This document shows positions 15,978 through 26,125 of a stretch of DNA of 52,126 bases, in pieces (the stretch's first letter is position 1; the number at the start of each line of letters is the position of its first letter). This stretch comes from Planctomycetaceae bacterium (GTDB lineage Bacteria; Planctomycetota; Planctomycetia; Planctomycetales; Planctomycetaceae), in contig JANQQW010000386.1 in assembly GCA_028284885.1 (NCBI GenBank), forward strand, positions 1-52,126. The letters run 5' to 3'. A model generated the notes under the pieces. It had not been told where the DNA came from and did no database searches. It saw only the letters and a program-made list of their open reading frames with translations. Position numbers and translations under genes: made by a program.

Positions 15978-16219
15978 GACGCACTCCGTAGTTCGAAACC
16001 GCTGACTTCAGACGGTATCCCACGGTTCCGGCGGCGGCAACGGGCCGAGCGGAGCCGACCGGGCACATCGACTTCGTGATTCTTGCCCGAAATCCGGATT
16101 CGGCCCCAAGAGTCTCCGCGGGAGAGCGTCGGGACGTTCGGAGGCGTGAAACCTTTTGGCCGGCTGCCGCGTCGAAGGTTGGAATCGCGAGCCGCTGTCC
16201 CCCCTTCAGGAGTTGCTCG

Positions 16220-18850
16220 ATGTCTCGCAGAACGTTCTCGGCACTCGCCACCGTTGCCCTGCTCGCCTTGACGGCCCAGTCGGTCATGGCCGGCCCCATC
16301 TTCCTTCGCGGGAAGATCGTCGACGGCCGGTTCGTCGCCCCGGAGAAGCCCGCCGAGGAGGTGCCGGCTGAGGGCGACGTGGCCGAACCCGCGGCACCCG
16401 AGGCGGCCGAAACCTCGGCGGAGGCCGAAACGAACGCCGAGCTTCGCTACACGATCCGCTACGCGACCATCACCGGGGAGGTCAACAGCTACGGCCCGAA
16501 GTTCGAGGCCGAGGAGGTCGTCACCGGGCCCGAGACACCCGAGACGGTCGTCGCCGTCGTTCCGATGGCGAAGCAGCCGAACCGCTGGCGGGACGTGGAA
16601 CTCCACGCTGGGCCGACTTCGGCCAAGCGAGAGGCCGTCGAGCACTTCGTCCTTGGTGGCGAGAAGGCGGAGGCGTTCCTGCAGCGGCTCGTGAAGGAGA
16701 CCGGCGACGTCGGCTTTGCGTCGTTCATCGGCCGTTCGATCCTCGTCGTTCCGGAGTTCGAGCTCTCGCGGCGGGTCAACGTCCTGCTGAAGGCGAACTA
16801 CCGGCAGATCGAGGGCGAGGAGTTCCCCGAAGTCGTGCTGCCCGTGCCGCAGACCAAGTGGGCCAGCGGACCGGTCGAGCGGCTGTCGATCTCCGTCGAT
16901 CTCGACATGGCCGACCCGCTCCGCACCGTCTTCAGCCCGACCCACCAAGCCGAGATCGAACGGGGCCACCTGACCGCGGCCACGGTCGAGGTCCGGCAGT
17001 CCGACTTGCACAGCGAGAACGACTTCCGCCTGCTCTGGGTGGAGGACGAGGGGGATCTCGGCCTTCGCTTCCTGCCGTTCCGGCTCGACGGCGAGGAGGA
17101 CGGCTACTTCGTGCTCGTCGGCAACCCGACCGGCCGCGCCGACGGCAGCGACGTCCTCGACAAGGACGTGACGTTCGTGCTCGACACCTCCGGCTCGATG
17201 CGGGGCGAGAAGATCGAGCAGTGCCGTGCCGCCATCGAGTACTGCCTCGACCAACTCGGCGAGAACGACCGGTTCAACGTCGTCACGTTCGGCAGCGAGG
17301 TCACGTCGTTCCGGCCGAACCTCGTTCCGAACACGGCCGCGAACCACGTGGCCGCCCGGGACTTCGTCGACGACATCGTTGCCCACGGGCGGACGAACGT
17401 CGGCGGGGCCCTGGAAGCCGCCCTCGCCGGCGACCTCACCGAGGGTCGTCCGCGGATCACGATCTTCCTGACCGACGGCACGCCGACCGCGGGCGAGCTC
17501 GTCCCCGAGAAGATCCTCGAGTCCGCCGCGGCCGCCAACACGTCGAAGTCGCCCGTCTACGTGCTGGGAGTCGGGCACGACGTGAACGTCCACCTGCTCG
17601 ACCGTCTCGCCGAGGCGAGCGAGGGAGCGGCCGAGTTCGTCGACCCGGACGAGGAGATCGACGTGAAGGTCGCCGGGCTGTACGACCGGCTCGCCCACCC
17701 CGTGCTGACCGACGTCGTCGTCGACTTCGGCGACCTCGACACCCACTCGCTGTTCCCGCGGAAGATTCCGGCCCTGTACCGCAACAGCCAGGTCATGCTC
17801 TTCGGCCGGTACCGCGAAGGGGGTGAGGCGACGGTTCGGGTCGCGGGTACGCTCGCCGGCGAGGACCGGGAGTACGCGCTGCGGATCGACGCCCCCGCCG
17901 AGACGACGGCCAGCACGTTCGACTTCGTCCCGCCGCTGTGGGCCTCGCGGAAGATCGGCTACCTGCTGCAGGAGATGCGACTCCACGGTGAGGAACCCGA
18001 GCTGCTCGAAGAGGTCGTCCGGCTGAGCAAGAAGTACGGCATCGTCACCGAGTACACCCAGTTCGTCGCCGTGCGGGCCGGAGTCGTCCGCGACGGCGGC
18101 CGAGTTCTGGACGGGTTCGCCTACGGGCAACAACTCGCGGCAGCGAACGAGATCCGGAACAACGGCCGGTTTGCCGGGCGGAAACTCCGCTTCGACGAGT
18201 TCCGTGCACAGAACGGCTTCGGCGGACTCGCTCCGGCGGCCGAGTTCGACGAGAAGACGGCCCTCGAGGCGGTCACGCGGCAGATCGCCCAGGCCCGCAA
18301 GCAGGAGACCGGGCGGTGGGCCTTCAACCAGGCCGTGAACGACAAGGACCTGCAGAGCCGCTTCGTCACCACCGGCGTCGCGAACTGCTACGTCGACCGC
18401 CGCGGGCAGACCGTCCACGTCGACCAGTTCGTCAAGCACGTCGGCGGCCGCTGCTTCTACCTCGACCAGGGGATCTGGCAGGAGTCCGAGGAGGCCGGCG
18501 AGCGGAAGGAACGTGTCGTCGAGCTGTACAGCGACGAGTACTTCGACCTGCTCAAGCAGAACGAGGACTTCCGTCGTGCCCAGAAGCTGGGCTGGGCGAT
18601 CTCCATCAACGTCGGCGACGAGCGAGTCGTGGTCGAGAAGGACGGCAAGCGCAGCGATCTGCCCGAGCCCCCCGTAGTCGAGCAACGGGTCGCGCCGCAG
18701 CCGAACGCGAAGGACGTCCCGCGGTTCCAACAGCTCCAGAACGCGATTCCGCAGAACGCCGTCCCGCAGAACTTCCAGCAGAACGACAACCGCATCCAGC
18801 GGCAGTTCGAACGCATCCAACAGGCTCCGAACGGCGGGGAGAACCGATGA
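16220..18850 (+). CDS. Secreted VIT/von Willebrand factor A domain protein
   Basis: This 876-residue protein starts at ATG 16220 with AGGAG just upstream and a signal peptide (MSRRTFSALATVALLALTAQ, cleavage near SVMAG). An Ala/Glu-rich linker precedes a VIT-like domain (about 60-310; FASFIGRSILVVPEFEL and TVFSPTHQAEIERG are family-like). The vWA domain (about 317-490) has an intact metal site, DTSGS beginning at Asp322, and a later TDGTP. A beta-rich region and an alpha-helical region follow. The tail (about 830-876) is low-complexity Gln/Asn/Pro with AIPQNAVPQNF-type repeats. VIT/vWA proteins bind partners through Mg2+ and in planctomycetes are mostly extracytoplasmic. The stop overlaps the next start as ATGA, so both genes are translated together. 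Confidence 0.88.
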   Translation: MSRRTFSALATVALLALTAQSVMAGPIFLRGKIVDGRFVAPEKPAEEVPAEGDVAEPAAPEAAETSAEAETNAELRYTIRYATITGEVNSYGPKFEAEEVVTGPETPETVVAVVPMAKQPNRWRDVELHAGPTSAKREAVEHFVLGGEKAEAFLQRLVKETGDVGFASFIGRSILVVPEFELSRRVNVLLKANYRQIEGEEFPEVVLPVPQTKWASGPVERLSISVDLDMADPLRTVFSPTHQAEIERGHLTAATVEVRQSDLHSENDFRLLWVEDEGDLGLRFLPFRLDGEEDGYFVLVGNPTGRADGSDVLDKDVTFVLDTSGSMRGEKIEQCRAAIEYCLDQLGENDRFNVVTFGSEVTSFRPNLVPNTAANHVAARDFVDDIVAHGRTNVGGALEAALAGDLTEGRPRITIFLTDGTPTAGELVPEKILESAAAANTSKSPVYVLGVGHDVNVHLLDRLAEASEGAAEFVDPDEEIDVKVAGLYDRLAHPVLTDVVVDFGDLDTHSLFPRKIPALYRNSQVMLFGRYREGGEATVRVAGTLAGEDREYALRIDAPAETTASTFDFVPPLWASRKIGYLLQEMRLHGEEPELLEEVVRLSKKYGIVTEYTQFVAVRAGVVRDGGRVLDGFAYGQQLAAANEIRNNGRFAGRKLRFDEFRAQNGFGGLAPAAEFDEKTALEAVTRQIAQARKQETGRWAFNQAVNDKDLQSRFVTTGVANCYVDRRGQTVHVDQFVKHVGGRCFYLDQGIWQESEEAGERKERVVELYSDEYFDLLKQNEDFRRAQKLGWAISINVGDERVVVEKDGKRSDLPEPPVVEQRVAPQPNAKDVPRFQQLQNAIPQNAVPQNFQQNDNRIQRQFERIQQAPNGGENR

Positions 18851-21096
18851 CACGGACCGTCCTGACTCTCCTCGCAGGACTGGCCGTCCTGCCATTGGCC
18901 CCACGTTCGGCCGCGGCCCAGCAGCCCGACGTGACGGCGAAACGGATTCGCGTCGCCATCGACGACGCCGTGCTCCACATGCGGACGCTGCACCGCGAGG
19001 ACGGCGTCATCTCGGACAACAACACGACCTACCTCGCGGCACTCGCCCTGCTCGCCGCCGGGGCCGACCCGGTCTCCGACAAGCAGCTCCAGAAGACGCT
19101 CGACTGGCTCGCCGGCCAGGAGCCGGACAACACCTACCTGCGGGGAATCCGGGCGAACGTCTGGGAGTACGCCCTGCGACGAACACCCGAGAACAAGAAG
19201 TACCGGCAGCTGCTGAAGAACGACTTCGACTGGCTCATCAAGGCGCTCGGCAACAAAGAGGGCTGGCGGTACACACTGAGCGGCGGCGGCTGGGACAACT
19301 CCTGCACGCAGTACGGGGTGTTGGGGGTGTGGGCCGCCCAGCGGGCCGGTTTCGAGCCGGGCGACAAGTTCTGGAACACGCTCTCCAAGCACTTTCGCGA
19401 GTCGCAGTCCCGTGACGGCGGCTGGACGTACACCGGCAAGGGGGACGCGACCGGCAACCACAACATGACGACCGCCGGCCTCGCCAGCGTGTTCCTCGTC
19501 TACGACTCGCACCACGCGAAGACCGTCTTCGACCGCGCGAACCCGCCCGACCTCGAGAAGGGGGACCTCGGCGAGGTGCTGAAGTCGATGGACCGCGGCG
19601 TCGAGTGGTTCTCCAAGAACGGCGGCGCCCAAGGCGGCTACTTCTACTACGGGATCGAGCGGACCGGCGTTGCCAGCGGCCGCAAGTACTTCGGCGACTA
19701 CGACTGGTTCGCCGACGGCTCCGCCCGCATCGTCGCCGCCCAACGCGGTGACGGCAGCATCCCGCTCTGCCGATGGGGCCAGCAGTACGGCACCCCGTTG
19801 TGCACGCTGTTCCTGGTCTACGGCGGAGCCCCGGTCGCCTTCAACAAGCTGCAGTACGGCGACGGCTACGACTGGAACCTGAACCCCCGCGACCTCGCCA
19901 ACCTCTCCAAGGACCTCTGGTCCGCGTACGAGAGCCCCGTCAACTGGCAGACGGTCTCGATCGACGCCCCGGCCACCGAGTTCGAGGCCCCGATCCTGTT
20001 CGTCAGCGGGTCGAAGGCAGCCGAGTTCACCGAAGAGCAGATGCTGAAGCTCCGCGAGTACGTTCTCCGCGGCGGCACCATCCTCGCCGAGCCCAGCGAC
20101 CACAGCCCGGAGTTCGCCAAGTCGATGGAACGGCTTCTGGAGAACATGTTCGACCCGCGTGACCACCCGCACGCGACACTGAAGCCGCTCGGCGAGGACC
20201 ACCCGGTCTTCACCGTCCTCGATCAGAATTGGAAACGGCGTCCCAAGCTCCGCGGCGCGTCCGACGGCACGCGGACCTTCTTCATCATCTCCGACGAGTA
20301 CCTCTCCGCGGACTGGCAGCGGAACGAAGTCGACTCGGACTCGTTCCGGCTGGCGACGAACCTGCTGTTCTACGTCACCGACCTCGGCACGCTGCGGCCG
20401 AAGTTCGACTCCATCCTGCCCGAGACGCCGCCCGCCGAGGCGAACGAGCGACCGGTGAGGATCGCCCGCATCTGGCACGGCGGCTCCGAGGGACCGCACG
20501 ACTGGGACGCGGGGGCGATGACCTGGAAGGCGTTCGCCCCGTACCTGAAGCACGTCACCGGGTCCGAACTCCAGGAGTCCGGCCCGGCGTTCCTCGACGG
20601 CACGCTGATGCGAGGCGTCAGTGGCAACGACGTGATCCACCTGACCGGTCGCGACGAGCTGATACTCACCCCAGCGGAGAGAACGGGGCTGAAGCAGTTC
20701 GTCGAGAACGGCGGCACGGTTCTCGTCGACGCCTTCGCCGGCTCGGAGACGTTCGCGAAGTCCGCCGAAAAGGTGCTGACCGAGGTGTTCGGCAAGCTCG
20801 AGCCGCTCGCGGACGACCACCCGCTCGCCGAGGGCCGCTTCGCCGGCGGCCAGGATCTCGGCAAGACGGTGCGCTTCAAGCTGACCGCCAGGAAACGACT
20901 GCGGGCGAACGGCGAGCCGACGAGCGGCCAGAAGTTGCTGGTCGCCGCGGTCGACGGCCGACCGGCCGTGCTCTTCTCGAAGTACGACCTCTCCGCCGCC
21001 CTCGCGGGTCAACGCCCCTACGGAGCGGTCGGCTACCAGGCCGACTCGGCCCGCCGCATCGTCTCCAACGTCCTCGCCTACGCCACGCTGGAGTAG
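18847..21096 (+). CDS. Secreted cyclase-fold (prenyltransferase-repeat) and tandem DUF4159 protein
   Basis: A 749-residue protein whose ATG overlaps the stop of the vWA gene by four bases. The signal peptide (MTRTVLTLLAGLAVLPLAPR) ends near SAAAQ. Residues about 25-330 form alpha/alpha-barrel repeats of the squalene cyclase/prenyltransferase type, with QSRDGGWTYTG and a second GWRYTLSGGGWDNS. A catalytic DxDD motif of true cyclases is not seen, so this is probably a structural or ligand-binding use of the fold. From about 340 to 520 is a DUF4159 domain (NPRDLANLSK, APILFVSG, YVLRGGTILAE). From about 545 to 749 a second, related domain repeats the theme (NDVIHLTGRDEL, FVENGGTVLVDAF, RRIVSNVLAYA). 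DUF4159 resembles a class I amidotransferase fold without a proven activity. A strong hairpin closes the transcript. Confidence 0.82.
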   Translation: MTRTVLTLLAGLAVLPLAPRSAAAQQPDVTAKRIRVAIDDAVLHMRTLHREDGVISDNNTTYLAALALLAAGADPVSDKQLQKTLDWLAGQEPDNTYLRGIRANVWEYALRRTPENKKYRQLLKNDFDWLIKALGNKEGWRYTLSGGGWDNSCTQYGVLGVWAAQRAGFEPGDKFWNTLSKHFRESQSRDGGWTYTGKGDATGNHNMTTAGLASVFLVYDSHHAKTVFDRANPPDLEKGDLGEVLKSMDRGVEWFSKNGGAQGGYFYYGIERTGVASGRKYFGDYDWFADGSARIVAAQRGDGSIPLCRWGQQYGTPLCTLFLVYGGAPVAFNKLQYGDGYDWNLNPRDLANLSKDLWSAYESPVNWQTVSIDAPATEFEAPILFVSGSKAAEFTEEQMLKLREYVLRGGTILAEPSDHSPEFAKSMERLLENMFDPRDHPHATLKPLGEDHPVFTVLDQNWKRRPKLRGASDGTRTFFIISDEYLSADWQRNEVDSDSFRLATNLLFYVTDLGTLRPKFDSILPETPPAEANERPVRIARIWHGGSEGPHDWDAGAMTWKAFAPYLKHVTGSELQESGPAFLDGTLMRGVSGNDVIHLTGRDELILTPAERTGLKQFVENGGTVLVDAFAGSETFAKSAEKVLTEVFGKLEPLADDHPLAEGRFAGGQDLGKTVRFKLTARKRLRANGEPTSGQKLLVAAVDGRPAVLFSKYDLSAALAGQRPYGAVGYQADSARRIVSNVLAYATLE

Positions 21097-21117
21097 ACGT
21101 GCGGGTCAACACCGGGC

Positions 21118-21143
21118 GACCGGGGGGGTGAGCCCCCCCGGTC
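21118..21143 (+). terminator. Perfect 11-base-pair GC hairpin, likely terminator
   Basis: The arms 21118-21128 (GACCGGGGGGG) and 21133-21143 are exact reverse complements around a TGAG tetraloop, 22 bases after the DUF4159 gene stop. No T-run follows. It separates the vWA-DUF4159 unit from the next vWA gene. Confidence 0.7.
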
Positions 21144-21255
21144 AAGCGTGCTCGTGAAGTCGGAACATCGAACCATCGGCCGCACGTAACCGGCCGGCTG
21201 ACACCGGCCGCTCGCCCGGCACGCGGCTTCCCGGATCAAACGTTCTCTGGAGGGA

Positions 21256-23478
21256 ATGATGCAACGCCCACTCTCGTTCGCCCTTCTCGCCGGCATCGGC
21301 GTCAGCCTGTTCGCTGCGACCGCGGACGCGTGCTTCGTCCGGTCGCCGCAGCCCGTGCAGGTCTGGCTGGACCACATCACCGTCGACGTCCGCGACCGGA
21401 TCGCCGTCAAGACGTACGACTGCACTTTCAAGAACCCCAACGCCCAAGCCGTCGTCGGCGGCACCTGCTACATGGAGCTCGAGCCGGGCGCTCAGGTCGA
21501 CGACATGACGATCTCCGTCAACGGCAAGGAGGCCCGGGCCGAGATCCTCGACGTCGAGAAGGCGAACGAGGTCTTCCAGGAGATCGTCCGCGAGGGGGGC
21601 AACGCCGCTCTCCTGGAGTACTACGGCAACCAGTTGGTGCAGTCGAAGATCCCCCGCATCGAGCCGAATGGCACGGTCACCGTGAAGCTCCGCTACACGA
21701 CGGTCCTCAGGGAACGAGGCGGCCTCGTGCGGCTGCAGATGTTGAACACGAACCCCAAGGCGAGCATGCAGCCGCTCGAGTCGGCCAGCGTGACCGTCAA
21801 CATCGCGAGCGAGCGTTCGATCAAGAACGTCTACAGCCCGACGCACGAGATCAAGCTCGTCGAGAAGCCGGACTGGGACGTCGCCGTCGAGTGGAGCCAG
21901 GAGAGCTATCTGCCGACGCACCCGTTCGTGCTCTACTACCAGATGGCCGACGAGGGGATCGGGGCCGGGCTCGTCACGCACCGTGAACTCGACGAGCCGG
22001 GCCACTTCATGATGGTCCTCTCGCCGACGATCGGCACCGGCAAGGACAGCGTGCAGGAGCAGGACGTGCTGCCGAAGGACGTCGTGTTCGTCGTCGACAC
22101 GTCCGGCAGCATGCTGCAGGACGGCAAGATGGGGCAGGCTCGCAAGGCGCTCGAGTACTGCGTGAAGAAGCTCCGAGACGGCGACCGGTTCGACGTCGTC
22201 GACTTCAGCACGACGGCCCGTGAGTTCTCGCCCCGCAAGCTCGCCGCGGTGAACGACACGACCCGCGCGAAGGCGCTCCGGTACGTGGAGAAGCTCGCCG
22301 CTCGCGGCGGAACGGCGATCGAGGAGGCGTTGACGCTCGCACTCGACAAGCTGAACGCCGAGGACGACGGCCGCGTGAAGATGATCGTCTTCGCGACCGA
22401 CGGCCTGCCGACCATCGGCGAACGCGAGCCGGAGGAACTCCTGAAACTGGTCGAGAAGAAGAACACCGAGGACGTCCGGCTGTTCGTCTTCGGCGAGGGC
22501 TTCGACGTGAACACGAAGCTGCTCGACTTCCTCGCCCTCGAGCACGACGGCTCGTCCGAGTACGTGCTGCCCGAGGAGGACATCGAGGAGAAGATCGCCG
22601 GGTTCTTCGACCGCGTCGGCTCGCCGATCGGCACGGACCTGAAGCTCGAGATCGAGGGGCTCGTCGTCGAGGACGTCTTCCCCCGCCGCATCGCCGACGT
22701 GCACGCCGGCGAGCAGATCGTCGTCTTCGGCCGGTACACGGGCCACGGCAGGCACACCCTCCGGCTCGTCGGCAACTTCGGCGGCAAGCGGGACGCCTTC
22801 GAGTACGAGTTCGACTTCCCGGAGCTCTCCGAGGACGCGAAGGGGGCGTTCGTGCCGCGGCTGTGGGCTGGGCAGAAGGTCGACTTCCTGCTCAACGAGA
22901 TTCGCCGCAGCGACGAGGAGGATCCCGAACTCGTCGACGAGGTGACGCACCTCGCCAAGCGGTACGGCATCGTCACGCCGTTCACGAGTTTTCTCGTCGT
23001 CGACGACGCCGGCCTGATGACCCGCGAGGAACAGGTGGCGAATTTCAAGCAACGGGTGCGGGCCGACGGCGGGCTGAAGGGCCAGGCGTGGGGACAGTCC
23101 GCCGTGACCAACTTCGCCGTGCAGGCCGAGAACCGCTTCCGCTACCAGGCGAACGGCGGGGCCTCGTCGTTCTACGGGCAGGTCGAGCTCGCCCGGAAGC
23201 AGGAGGGCTTCGACGGAGCCGCGCCGGGTCTGCAGCAGGTGCGTTTCGTCGGCAACTGCACCTTCTACAACTGTCAGAACGTCTGGTACGACAGTCGCTT
23301 CGACGTCGCGGAGGTGGACGAGAAGGAGATTCAGGACGTGACGGTCGGCACCGAGACGTACCTGCAGTTGCTCGCCGACAACCCCGACGTCGCCCCGTCG
23401 ATGGCGCAGGGAGACGTCGTGCTCAACGTCCGCGGCCAGTGGTTCCGCTTCCGCACGAAGGAGCAGAAGCCGAGCTGA
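21256..23478 (+). CDS. Secreted VIT/von Willebrand factor A domain protein
   Basis: This 740-residue protein has a signal peptide (MMQRPLSFALLAGIGVSLFA, cleavage near TADAC) and GGAGG before the ATG at 21256. The VIT domain (about 30-200) is typical: DCTFKNPNAQAV, CYMELEPGAQVDDMTI, then IPRIEPNGTVTVKLRYT and the junction sequence VYSPTHEI. The vWA domain (about 275-445) has an intact metal-binding DTSGS at Asp281 and ATDGLP. A C-terminal helical region and a small cysteine pair (GNCTFYNCQN) end the protein. It is a paralogue in architecture of the 876-residue protein at 16220. The stop is four bases from the stop of the convergent kinase-caspase gene. Confidence 0.9.
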   Translation: MMQRPLSFALLAGIGVSLFAATADACFVRSPQPVQVWLDHITVDVRDRIAVKTYDCTFKNPNAQAVVGGTCYMELEPGAQVDDMTISVNGKEARAEILDVEKANEVFQEIVREGGNAALLEYYGNQLVQSKIPRIEPNGTVTVKLRYTTVLRERGGLVRLQMLNTNPKASMQPLESASVTVNIASERSIKNVYSPTHEIKLVEKPDWDVAVEWSQESYLPTHPFVLYYQMADEGIGAGLVTHRELDEPGHFMMVLSPTIGTGKDSVQEQDVLPKDVVFVVDTSGSMLQDGKMGQARKALEYCVKKLRDGDRFDVVDFSTTAREFSPRKLAAVNDTTRAKALRYVEKLAARGGTAIEEALTLALDKLNAEDDGRVKMIVFATDGLPTIGEREPEELLKLVEKKNTEDVRLFVFGEGFDVNTKLLDFLALEHDGSSEYVLPEEDIEEKIAGFFDRVGSPIGTDLKLEIEGLVVEDVFPRRIADVHAGEQIVVFGRYTGHGRHTLRLVGNFGGKRDAFEYEFDFPELSEDAKGAFVPRLWAGQKVDFLLNEIRRSDEEDPELVDEVTHLAKRYGIVTPFTSFLVVDDAGLMTREEQVANFKQRVRADGGLKGQAWGQSAVTNFAVQAENRFRYQANGGASSFYGQVELARKQEGFDGAAPGLQQVRFVGNCTFYNCQNVWYDSRFDVAEVDEKEIQDVTVGTETYLQLLADNPDVAPSMAQGDVVLNVRGQWFRFRTKEQKPS

Positions 23479-23482
23479 CGCC

Positions 23483-26125
23483 TCAGCGGGGCTGGACGAG
23501 GACCGGCGTCTGGTCGTCGGTCCTCAGTCGTGCGCGGACGTAGGCGGCGAGTTCCTCGGCCGTGATCTCGACGTTCGCGTTCGCGTCGGCCCGTCCGGCG
23601 TAGCCGTCCGCGACGGCCGCGGCGAAAAGCCCGTGTTTGTCGCGGACGCCACCACGCTCGCCCGTGGAACAGCTGGCGAGAATGGAGACCTTGCTGGTCG
23701 CGCCCGCCTTCTCCGCGACGACACTCGACGCCGGCTCCAGGCCCTCTTCGAGTCCCGCGTGGCAGGTGTCGAGCAGCAGCAGCACGGACTTCGCCGCCGA
23801 GCGGTCGAGCGTGTCCACGAGGACGTCGAGCGGAACCCCTCGCGACGAGGGCTCCCTCGGGTCGAAGTCGGTCCCGCCGAAGTAGGCCTTGCCGTCGTTT
23901 CCGAGCAGGACGTGTCCACCGAGGTAGACGACGAGCTCGGCTCCTGGACCCACCTTGCCGACGGACCGGCCGAACTCGCGTTCGAGACGCTGCCCGGTGA
24001 GATCGACGTGTTCGATCAGCCGGTCGTCGGGGAGGTACCGCTCGGTCAGCGACTCGCCGAGCCGTCTCGCGTCGGCGACGAGGTACGGCAACTCGGGCAG
24101 TTCGGCCTGGTACGCAGCCGTCGCGACGACGACCGCCCACCGGTTTCCGCGTTCCCAGCGGCGGGCCGTCACACTGCTCGCGGTCGGCGCGCCACCGCCG
24201 CGGGCGTCGTGCAGCGTGATGCGGACGTCGTCGTTCTCCCGCAGGTCGCCGAGCTTCGCCCGACCGGCTCCGATCGCCACGTCGGCCTCGGCGGGAACGC
24301 GAACCGACGTCCGCCCGCCCGCCACCTTGACCTCGAGCGTGCCCGAGCCCGCGTCGGCCTCGACGACGACCCCCGTGATCTCACGGTCGTCCCGAATCGC
24401 CTCCAGCGAGCGAATGCTGCTGTCGTGCAGAATGCGGACCCGGTCGTTCCTCCGGAGCTCGGACGGACGGACGTCCGCGGTGGAGCCGCGGTCGGACAGC
24501 GAGAGCGTCGCGTCCTTCGCCAGCGAGAGGACGAGCGGCGAGTCGCGCCCCATGACGCTGATCGCGACCGTTCCGGCGTCGGCGTCGTACGCCTCGAGGA
24601 ACCCGACCTTCTCCTCGGCGGCCGTCACCTCCAGGCGACTGGCGATGCGGCCGGGCTTGTCCTTCAGCTCCGGCAGATGCCACACCCGCACCAGCTTCCC
24701 CTCTTCCACGTCCGTCAGCTCGGCGGGCCGGCCGTTGCGAGTGATCTCGGTGTTCTCCGTGACGCGGAGTTCGATGTCGTTCCGCCAGCGACCGCGGACC
24801 GGGGCGACGACGATCCTGCGGTCACCCGGCCGCAACTCCACGATGCGGCCCTCGGTCTCCACCGGTCGCGACGCGACGATTCGCAGCCGGCCGTCCGACC
24901 GGTCCAGCTCCAACCGGTCCCCCGCCACGAGTTCGCGGAGCAGCACGTACTGCTCGTTCTCGCCGAACTCTCGGAGCAGCACCTCGGGGTCGTCGGCGAA
25001 CGACATCTCCTTCGCACCGGGTCGGTCGACGTAGGAGATCTTGATCGTCTTCTCGCCTTCGGCGGAGTCGAGGAACTCCTCGAAGACGACGACGCTGGGG
25101 TCCGACGGGGCGGGGCCTTCGTTGCCGGAGGGCTTGAGGAGGATGAACAGCGAGAGAACGACGGAGAAGGCCATCGCGCCGCCGAGCAGCAGCAGCCGTT
25201 TCTTGCGCGCCGCCTCCTCGGGATCGGCCTCCTTCGTCTCGCCTCCCTCCTTCACCTCCTTGACGATCTTCTGGTCGACGCCGAGGTCGTCGAGCGCGGC
25301 GCCGGCGGAGGTGTACCGCTCGGACTGCTTCTTCTGCACGAGCTTGTCGACGACGGCCGCGAGATCCTCGGGCACGCCTTGCAGCACGCGGCCGATCTCC
25401 GGGATGCGGCGGTCCGGCGCGGCGTGCCACATCATCCAGGCAATCTGCTTGTTCCGCCCGAACGCACTGAGACCGGGGAAGAGCTGCTCGAAGTTCTCGC
25501 CGCAGAGGAGCGAGTAGGTGGAGAAGCCGAGGGAGTACAGGTCGCTCGGCGGGCCGATCTCGCCGAACTCGTCCGAGACGACCTCCGGGGCCATGTACCT
25601 CGTGGTCCCCTTCAGCAGGCTCCCCTCGTCGTCGCTGACGCGGCGGGCAAGGCCGAAGTCGCCGATCTTCACCCGCTTGCGGTGGTCGATCATCATGTTC
25701 GACGGCTTGACGTCGCCGTGCGTGATGCCTCGTTCGTGCAGGTACTTCAGGGCCCGTAGGCAGTGGGCGACGGTCGACTTCGCCGCCTGCACGGACAACG
25801 GCTTTCCCTGCATGCGGTCGGCGAGGTTCGTCTGCATCAACTCCATCACGATCCACCCGCGGTCCTTGTGCAGGTCGTAGATCGTGACGATGTTCGGGTG
25901 CTGCAGGGACGCGAGCAGCTGCGCCTCCGCCCAGAAGCGGTCGAGGGCCTGCGGATCCGCCATGTACTGGTCGTGGATCTGCTTGACGGCGACCTCGCGA
26001 CCCAACTCGTTGTCGCGGGCGCGGTAGACGGTGGCGAAGGTGCCGGAGCCGACCTTCTCCAGCAGGGTGTAGCGGGACTCGACGTCCAAGGGGCGCGACT
26101 CGGTGAGCGGTGAGGCGAAGGGCAT
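23483..26125 (-). CDS. Transmembrane Ser/Thr protein kinase fused to a caspase-like (C14) domain
   Basis: An 880-residue fusion. Residues about 18-290 are a Hanks-type kinase: P-loop GSGTFATVY, Lys48 in VAVKQI, catalytic HGDVKPSN (Asp138; HGD in place of HRD), DFGLA (Asp157) and APE near 180. All core residues are present. One membrane helix at 311-330 puts the kinase in the cytoplasm and the rest outside. About 340-655 is a beta-rich linker with several strands around Val/Arg/Asp motifs such as VVVEADAGSGTLEVKV. Residues about 660-880 are a caspase/metacaspase fold with His738 in YLGGHVL and Cys789 in LLDTCHAG, plus ILASCSTGE. Both dyad residues are intact, so activity is possible. This looks like a one-protein sensor or signalling device whose protease lies on the far side of the membrane. 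The gene is convergent with the vWA gene. Confidence 0.9.
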   Translation of the reverse strand: MPFASPLTESRPLDVESRYTLLEKVGSGTFATVYRARDNELGREVAVKQIHDQYMADPQALDRFWAEAQLLASLQHPNIVTIYDLHKDRGWIVMELMQTNLADRMQGKPLSVQAAKSTVAHCLRALKYLHERGITHGDVKPSNMMIDHRKRVKIGDFGLARRVSDDEGSLLKGTTRYMAPEVVSDEFGEIGPPSDLYSLGFSTYSLLCGENFEQLFPGLSAFGRNKQIAWMMWHAAPDRRIPEIGRVLQGVPEDLAAVVDKLVQKKQSERYTSAGAALDDLGVDQKIVKEVKEGGETKEADPEEAARKKRLLLLGGAMAFSVVLSLFILLKPSGNEGPAPSDPSVVVFEEFLDSAEGEKTIKISYVDRPGAKEMSFADDPEVLLREFGENEQYVLLRELVAGDRLELDRSDGRLRIVASRPVETEGRIVELRPGDRRIVVAPVRGRWRNDIELRVTENTEITRNGRPAELTDVEEGKLVRVWHLPELKDKPGRIASRLEVTAAEEKVGFLEAYDADAGTVAISVMGRDSPLVLSLAKDATLSLSDRGSTADVRPSELRRNDRVRILHDSSIRSLEAIRDDREITGVVVEADAGSGTLEVKVAGGRTSVRVPAEADVAIGAGRAKLGDLRENDDVRITLHDARGGGAPTASSVTARRWERGNRWAVVVATAAYQAELPELPYLVADARRLGESLTERYLPDDRLIEHVDLTGQRLEREFGRSVGKVGPGAELVVYLGGHVLLGNDGKAYFGGTDFDPREPSSRGVPLDVLVDTLDRSAAKSVLLLLDTCHAGLEEGLEPASSVVAEKAGATSKVSILASCSTGERGGVRDKHGLFAAAVADGYAGRADANANVEITAEELAAYVRARLRTDDQTPVLVQPR

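Follow-up and report, generated by a model that had tools for sequence, protein, structure and literature searches.

What is the function of a membrane protein that joins a Ser/Thr kinase on one side of the membrane to a caspase-like fold on the other, and is that fold still a protease? The question is raised by a gene (23483..26125, minus strand) in the window, the stretch of 52,126 nucleotides of planctomycete DNA analyzed here. The gene, called KC, is an open reading frame that begins with ATG and encodes 880 residues, arranged as a kinase, a transmembrane helix, a beta-rich linker and a caspase-like domain. An earlier note on this DNA, made from the letters alone, recognized a complete Hanks-type kinase, one membrane helix and a caspase fold in this chain, and all three are confirmed. 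Its interpretation holds in part: the proposed topology and the unusual catalytic loop stand, and the ideas that the protease is a conserved output and that the protein belongs to bacterial conflict or cell death are for the most part unsupported. Instead, we propose, with a probability of roughly six in ten, that KC serves the planctomycete FHA-type Tad (Flp/type IVc) pilus system as its dedicated transmembrane Ser/Thr kinase.

Architecture of the KC protein

Relatives of KC were collected with a C-terminal query within the same genome family and by a contig scan that named 13 planctomycete-like loci. With duplicates merged, the alignment holds 28 proteins, including that of the window; the 27 others are full length and planctomycete-like in every case. 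The kinase, one helix, the linker and the caspase-like domain are present in all 28. Because the full-length arrangement recurs in 27 other aligned proteins, it is the product of neither chance nor a chimera. Measured against the window protein, identity averages 66% in the kinase, 25% in the linker and 31% in the caspase-like domain. In 12 of the 28 members (L031, L036, L038-L040 and L059-L065) the C-terminus is extended by about 235 further helical (TPR-like) residues, which are absent from the window protein. Two loci are unusual in other respects. The contig of L061 (JABMRB010000439.1) is filed as Candidatus Nealsonbacteria and carries a planctomycete operon with the kinase, probably a binning error. 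At L076 (9348-17096, minus strand, in genome G029), KC forms the end of a 2583-residue open frame in which about 1560 residues upstream of KC are without a Pfam match; this long frame may be a fusion or may be open by chance.

The Hanks-type Ser/Thr kinase domain (residues 15-281; 25283..26083, minus strand) is the most conserved part of the family. In the window protein it matches PF00069 at 175 bits over residues 19-273 and displays the residues by which Hanks-type kinases are recognized: K48 (VAIK), E67 (alphaC), D138 (HxD), N143 and D156 (DFG). The glutamate, the aspartate, the asparagine and the DFG motif are kept in 28/28 members, and K48 in 26/28. The HGD catalytic loop (residues 136-138; 25712..25720, minus strand), a non-RD form that was noticed earlier in the single protein, is real and family-wide, with H and D present in all 28 members and G137 in 27.

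By sequence, the closest kinases are of the PknB type, and the closest solved kinase structures are those of the PASTA kinases (PknB/Stk1, NF033483). KC resembles the latter in having the kinase inside, one transmembrane helix and a putative outside sensor. However, it scores 201.1 bits against the NF033483 cut-off of 450, with the match confined to the kinase region, its loop is HGD and not HRD, and no PASTA repeats were detected in Pfam scans of the window protein and family members. On these sequence features KC is not classed as a PASTA kinase. A reading of KC as part of a defence system was also considered and set aside; the PADLOC matches shown (MAD6 and PD-T4-6) all fall on the kinase domain, as they would for any Hanks kinase.

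The single transmembrane helix (residues about 311-330; 25136..25195, minus strand) is clear from hydropathy. The hydrophobic stretch at residues 312-330 has a mean Kyte-Doolittle value of 2.54, compared to 1.08 for the next best stretch elsewhere in the protein. Lys and Arg are more numerous before the helix than after it in nearly all members (5 vs 1 in the window protein). This excess of positive residues on the kinase side of a lone helix supports the topology suggested earlier, with the kinase inside and the remainder of the protein, including the C-terminus, outside. The beta-rich linker that follows (residues 344-655; 24161..25096, minus strand) had been left without an obvious assignment. 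Its predicted strands form tandem small beta-barrel repeats of DUF5666/CusF-like type, and these predicted all-beta repeats agree with Pfam matches to small beta-barrel families in some members, CusF_Ec in 7/28 and DUF5666 in 3/28.

Linkage and co-occurrence with a Tad operon

In the window, KC lies among genes for VIT/VWA, VWA, DUF4159, squalene-hopene-cyclase-like, DUF3050 and ThrRS proteins. These were rejected as operon partners, having no counterparts at the loci of relatives except for one upstream ORF, which is matched in a single other locus. When the neighbours of 24 KC loci were clustered, one conserved gene set emerged immediately upstream of KC. In genome G001 the order, all on the same strand, is a TadE-like protein, an unassigned membrane protein, a CpaB-like protein, an ATPase combining FHA with T2SSE/TadA, TadB, TadC, an FHA-like membrane protein and KC. 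The FHA domain, which binds phospho-threonine, is N-terminal in this TadA/CpaF ATPase (FHA-CpaF). The T2SSE/TadA match and two T2SSF matches are clear and identify a Tad/Flp operon; those to CpaB (TIGR03177) and TadE are weak, the latter being seen in counterparts of the G001 TadE-like protein.

In 15 distinct genomes, KC directly follows, on the same strand, the FHA-like membrane protein, the last gene of the Tad operon. These genomes are G001, G008, G009, G016 (in which the contig ends within KC), G023, G034, G045, G397 and G401, together with those of loci L053, L059, L061, L063, L064 and L065. Three of these, G045, G397 and G401, represent two other families of the window's class, and because they lie outside the window's own family the linked order is probably ancestral. 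The window genome and about half of the carriers of family f1 have KC apart from the operon. In the window genome the same operon is found on another contig (C399) without KC, its FHA-CpaF being 77% identical, and a convergent gene occupies the place where KC would be. The FHA domain of this CpaF scores 37.9 bits against a cut-off of 20.7. In the aligned CpaF sequences the FHA domain retains Gly-Arg and Asn in 15/15 cases, and most of them also have the loop Ser. The membrane protein whose gene precedes KC has a degenerate FHA-like domain. This membrane protein (c4: L074 7116-8090, L062, L064, L065, L079, L229) has an FHA-like N-terminus only in the window's family. In other families the N-terminus is Cys-rich and zinc-ribbon-like, and only the helix and the C-terminus are common to all.

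The distribution of KC was compared to that of the operon across 59 genomes. Both KC and FHA-CpaF are present in 20 of them, one has KC only, one has FHA-CpaF together with a KC fragment at a contig end, and in the remaining 37 neither was found (Fisher p 4e-15). Each of the 59 has many other kinases, and the orthologous KC kinase is still a clear class, detected in 21 genomes at 59-77% identity with the next best kinase at 43% and a far lower score. FHA-CpaF (E below 1e-200) is likewise found in 21/59 genomes and follows the KC set in all but G035, whose completeness is 78%. For the FHA-like membrane protein (E below 1e-15), the only departure from that set is G010, whose completeness is 79%. 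Four genomes considered as FHA-only exceptions (G008, G016, G027 and G030) were rejected as such, as the kinase is present in each locus, in the case of G016 as a 69-residue fragment at the contig end. On a ThrRS tree, the presence of KC changes 9 times, and of the 5 well-supported independent pairs an average of 4.8 have FHA-CpaF changing together with KC and none has it changing in the opposite way; with just 5 such pairs, the tree-aware sign test reaches only p 0.06. The link between KC and the Tad operon is well supported by both linkage and co-occurrence, and this specific association replaces the general context of conflict and cell death.

An association of this kind could reflect inherited linkage and not function, with the kinase acting mainly on other targets in the envelope or in division, like the PASTA kinases. 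The similarity to PknB-type kinases would fit such a role, as would the many genomes in which the kinase gene is unlinked. However, FHA-CpaF is kept in every unlinked genome of the 59 except one, itself 78% complete, and we regard this account as unlikely.

A kinase of intermediate similarity (43%) was observed at G040:C4:1438567-1439352, in a 747-residue open frame of a genome without FHA-CpaF. It could show the origin of the KC family.

The caspase-like domain and its catalytic dyad

The caspase-like domain (residues 656-880; 23486..24160, minus strand) matches PF00656 in the window protein at 21.5 bits, just above the cut-off of 21.4, and the EACC1-associated caspase model NF047832 at 64.9 bits, below the cut-off of 140. 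A Foldseek search of the PDB with the full-length model yielded mostly kinases, and the outside part (residues 340-880) was therefore folded separately, giving a prediction with a pLDDT of 88.6. Its C-terminal part superimposes on procaspase-6 with a Z score of 21.7 (rmsd 2.4 Å over 193 residues) and on MALT1 and metacaspase 4 with Z scores of about 20. Structure prediction of this region had been suggested in the earlier note as a check, and the caspase fold is strongly confirmed by it; as modeled, the window protein has the peptidase C14/caspase fold.

In an HMM alignment to MALT1, the catalytic His aligns with His738 (23912..23914, minus strand) and the catalytic Cys with position 788 (23762..23764, minus strand). 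The dyad is intact in the window protein (LGGHV and LDTCHAG), as had been claimed, with the correction that the nucleophile is Cys788 and not residue 789, which is His. Across the family, His738 is kept in 22/28 members and Cys788 in 7/28; both are intact in only six, the window protein among them, compared to 19/20 of the nearest outside caspases in the phylum (Fisher p 2.6e-7). Where position 788 is not Cys, it holds S, T, V, A, G or D; in eight members the preceding residue is a Cys. A tree from which the caspase columns were left out requires at least 7 changes at Cys788, and the residue is scattered over that tree. In addition, the domain is absent from two relatives. The G008 protein stops exactly before it and the G027 protein stops inside the linker, and no separate caspase domain is encoded downstream of the shortened KC in either.

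The contrast between 6/28 and 19/20, together with the two relatives that end before the domain, indicates that proteolysis is not the conserved function of the KC family, contrary to the view of the protease as its output. Judged by its residues, the family does not show the dyad conservation of an active protease, although the dyad is present in the window protein, which may retain residual protease activity. Loss of Cys or His is known from planctomycete caspase homologs, in which conservation is 64% and Ser is the commonest substitute (PMC3501461). In its fold and in the loss of these residues, the KC domain resembles the (meta)caspases of prokaryotes, including the inactive ones (PMC3501461; PMC7159879). 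It differs from them in that it lies outside the membrane and shares a chain with a kinase that looks active and is linked to a Tad system. The caspase fold in the KC family seems to be kept mainly for its shape.

Proteolysis might instead be confined to some members (the window protein, those of G012 and G014, and others) as an ancestral activity in Tad maturation or shedding that was repeatedly lost elsewhere. The six members with both residues are consistent with this, and the loss of the dyad within the family is derived, since the nearest outside caspases are intact in all but one case. However, members with and without the Cys are scattered on the tree and form no stable active clade, making such a history rather unlikely. 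An active extracytoplasmic caspase-type protease that is controlled by the cytoplasmic kinase, or the reverse, in a cell-death or conflict response is very unlikely: the intact dyad of the window protein, its certain caspase fold and the weak EACC1-associated match fit it, but the dyad is eroded or lost with its domain elsewhere in the family, and neither an EACC1 family nor conflict genes occur among the neighbours examined. No EACC1 family was detected next to KC in the Pfam-scanned window neighbours (small ORFs scanned in part), and the sub-threshold NF047832 score would place KC apart from the EACC1-type caspases of the two-gene conflict system.

A possible phospho-threonine switch on the Tad motor

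KC is tied to a Tad machine with a phospho-threonine reader on its motor, and it therefore probably controls that machine and is not an executor of cell death. As the kinase of the Tad pilus, KC might work as follows. The outside part, made of beta-barrels and a pseudo-caspase, would bind or sense some factor located at the envelope or pilus, the caspase-like domain acting chiefly as an ectodomain for binding or structure, and this would set the activity of the kinase inside. The kinase would then phosphorylate threonines either in its own chain or in Tad components. Binding of these phospho-threonines by the FHA domain of CpaF would switch or place the pilus motor, and the product of the gene immediately preceding KC, the FHA-like membrane protein, could possibly bind them as well. 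A Tad phospho-threonine switch of this form, running from a KC kinase with an outside pseudo-caspase sensor to the FHA domain on the CpaF motor, would be a counterpart of PpkA-Fha; drawn by analogy, it could equally prove right or wrong.

In type VI secretion, PpkA-Fha is described as a pathway of threonine phosphorylation (PMC3953482, PMC6082577, PMC12607579). As represented in those sources, it shares with KC a dedicated Hanks-type kinase genetically linked to FHA proteins and to a secretion-type machine. The machine of KC is a Tad pilus and not a type VI system, the outside part of KC consists of beta-barrels and a pseudo-caspase, and the proposed KC pathway is based here on linkage and co-occurrence. 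The Kil apparatus of Myxococcus is closer in its machinery, a Tad-like system with a CpaF-type ATPase, KilF, that has an N-terminal FHA domain fused to it, and with several further FHA proteins; its authors suggested a signalling cascade, with no kinase named in their text (PMC8460266). In planctomycetes, on the other hand, the operon comes with a kinase gene. The same FHA-CpaF architecture is seen in class III CpaF, reported mostly in betaproteobacteria and, in the relevant parts of that report, without a described kinase partner (PMC12019362).

FHA domains on Tad motors have thus already been noted, in the cited parts of both reports without a named kinase that writes their ligand (PMC8460266, PMC12019362), and we found no kinase named for a Tad machine, and no kinase-caspase fusion in planctomycetes, in the open-access literature searched. 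KC is a concrete candidate for the writer of the FHA ligand that travels together with the FHA motor, making phospho-control of Tad pili directly testable. If the proposal is true, an FHA-type Tad machine would have its first assigned kinase in KC, and a caspase fold would be in use as an extracytoplasmic sensor. The combination of kinase and caspase in planctomycetes need not signify programmed cell death.

Beside KC in the window, three adjacent genes at 16076-23478 (plus strand) encode proteins with VWA, DUF4159 and VIT+VWA domains. The last of them, the VIT+VWA gene, is convergent with KC and ends 4 bp from the KC stop codon.
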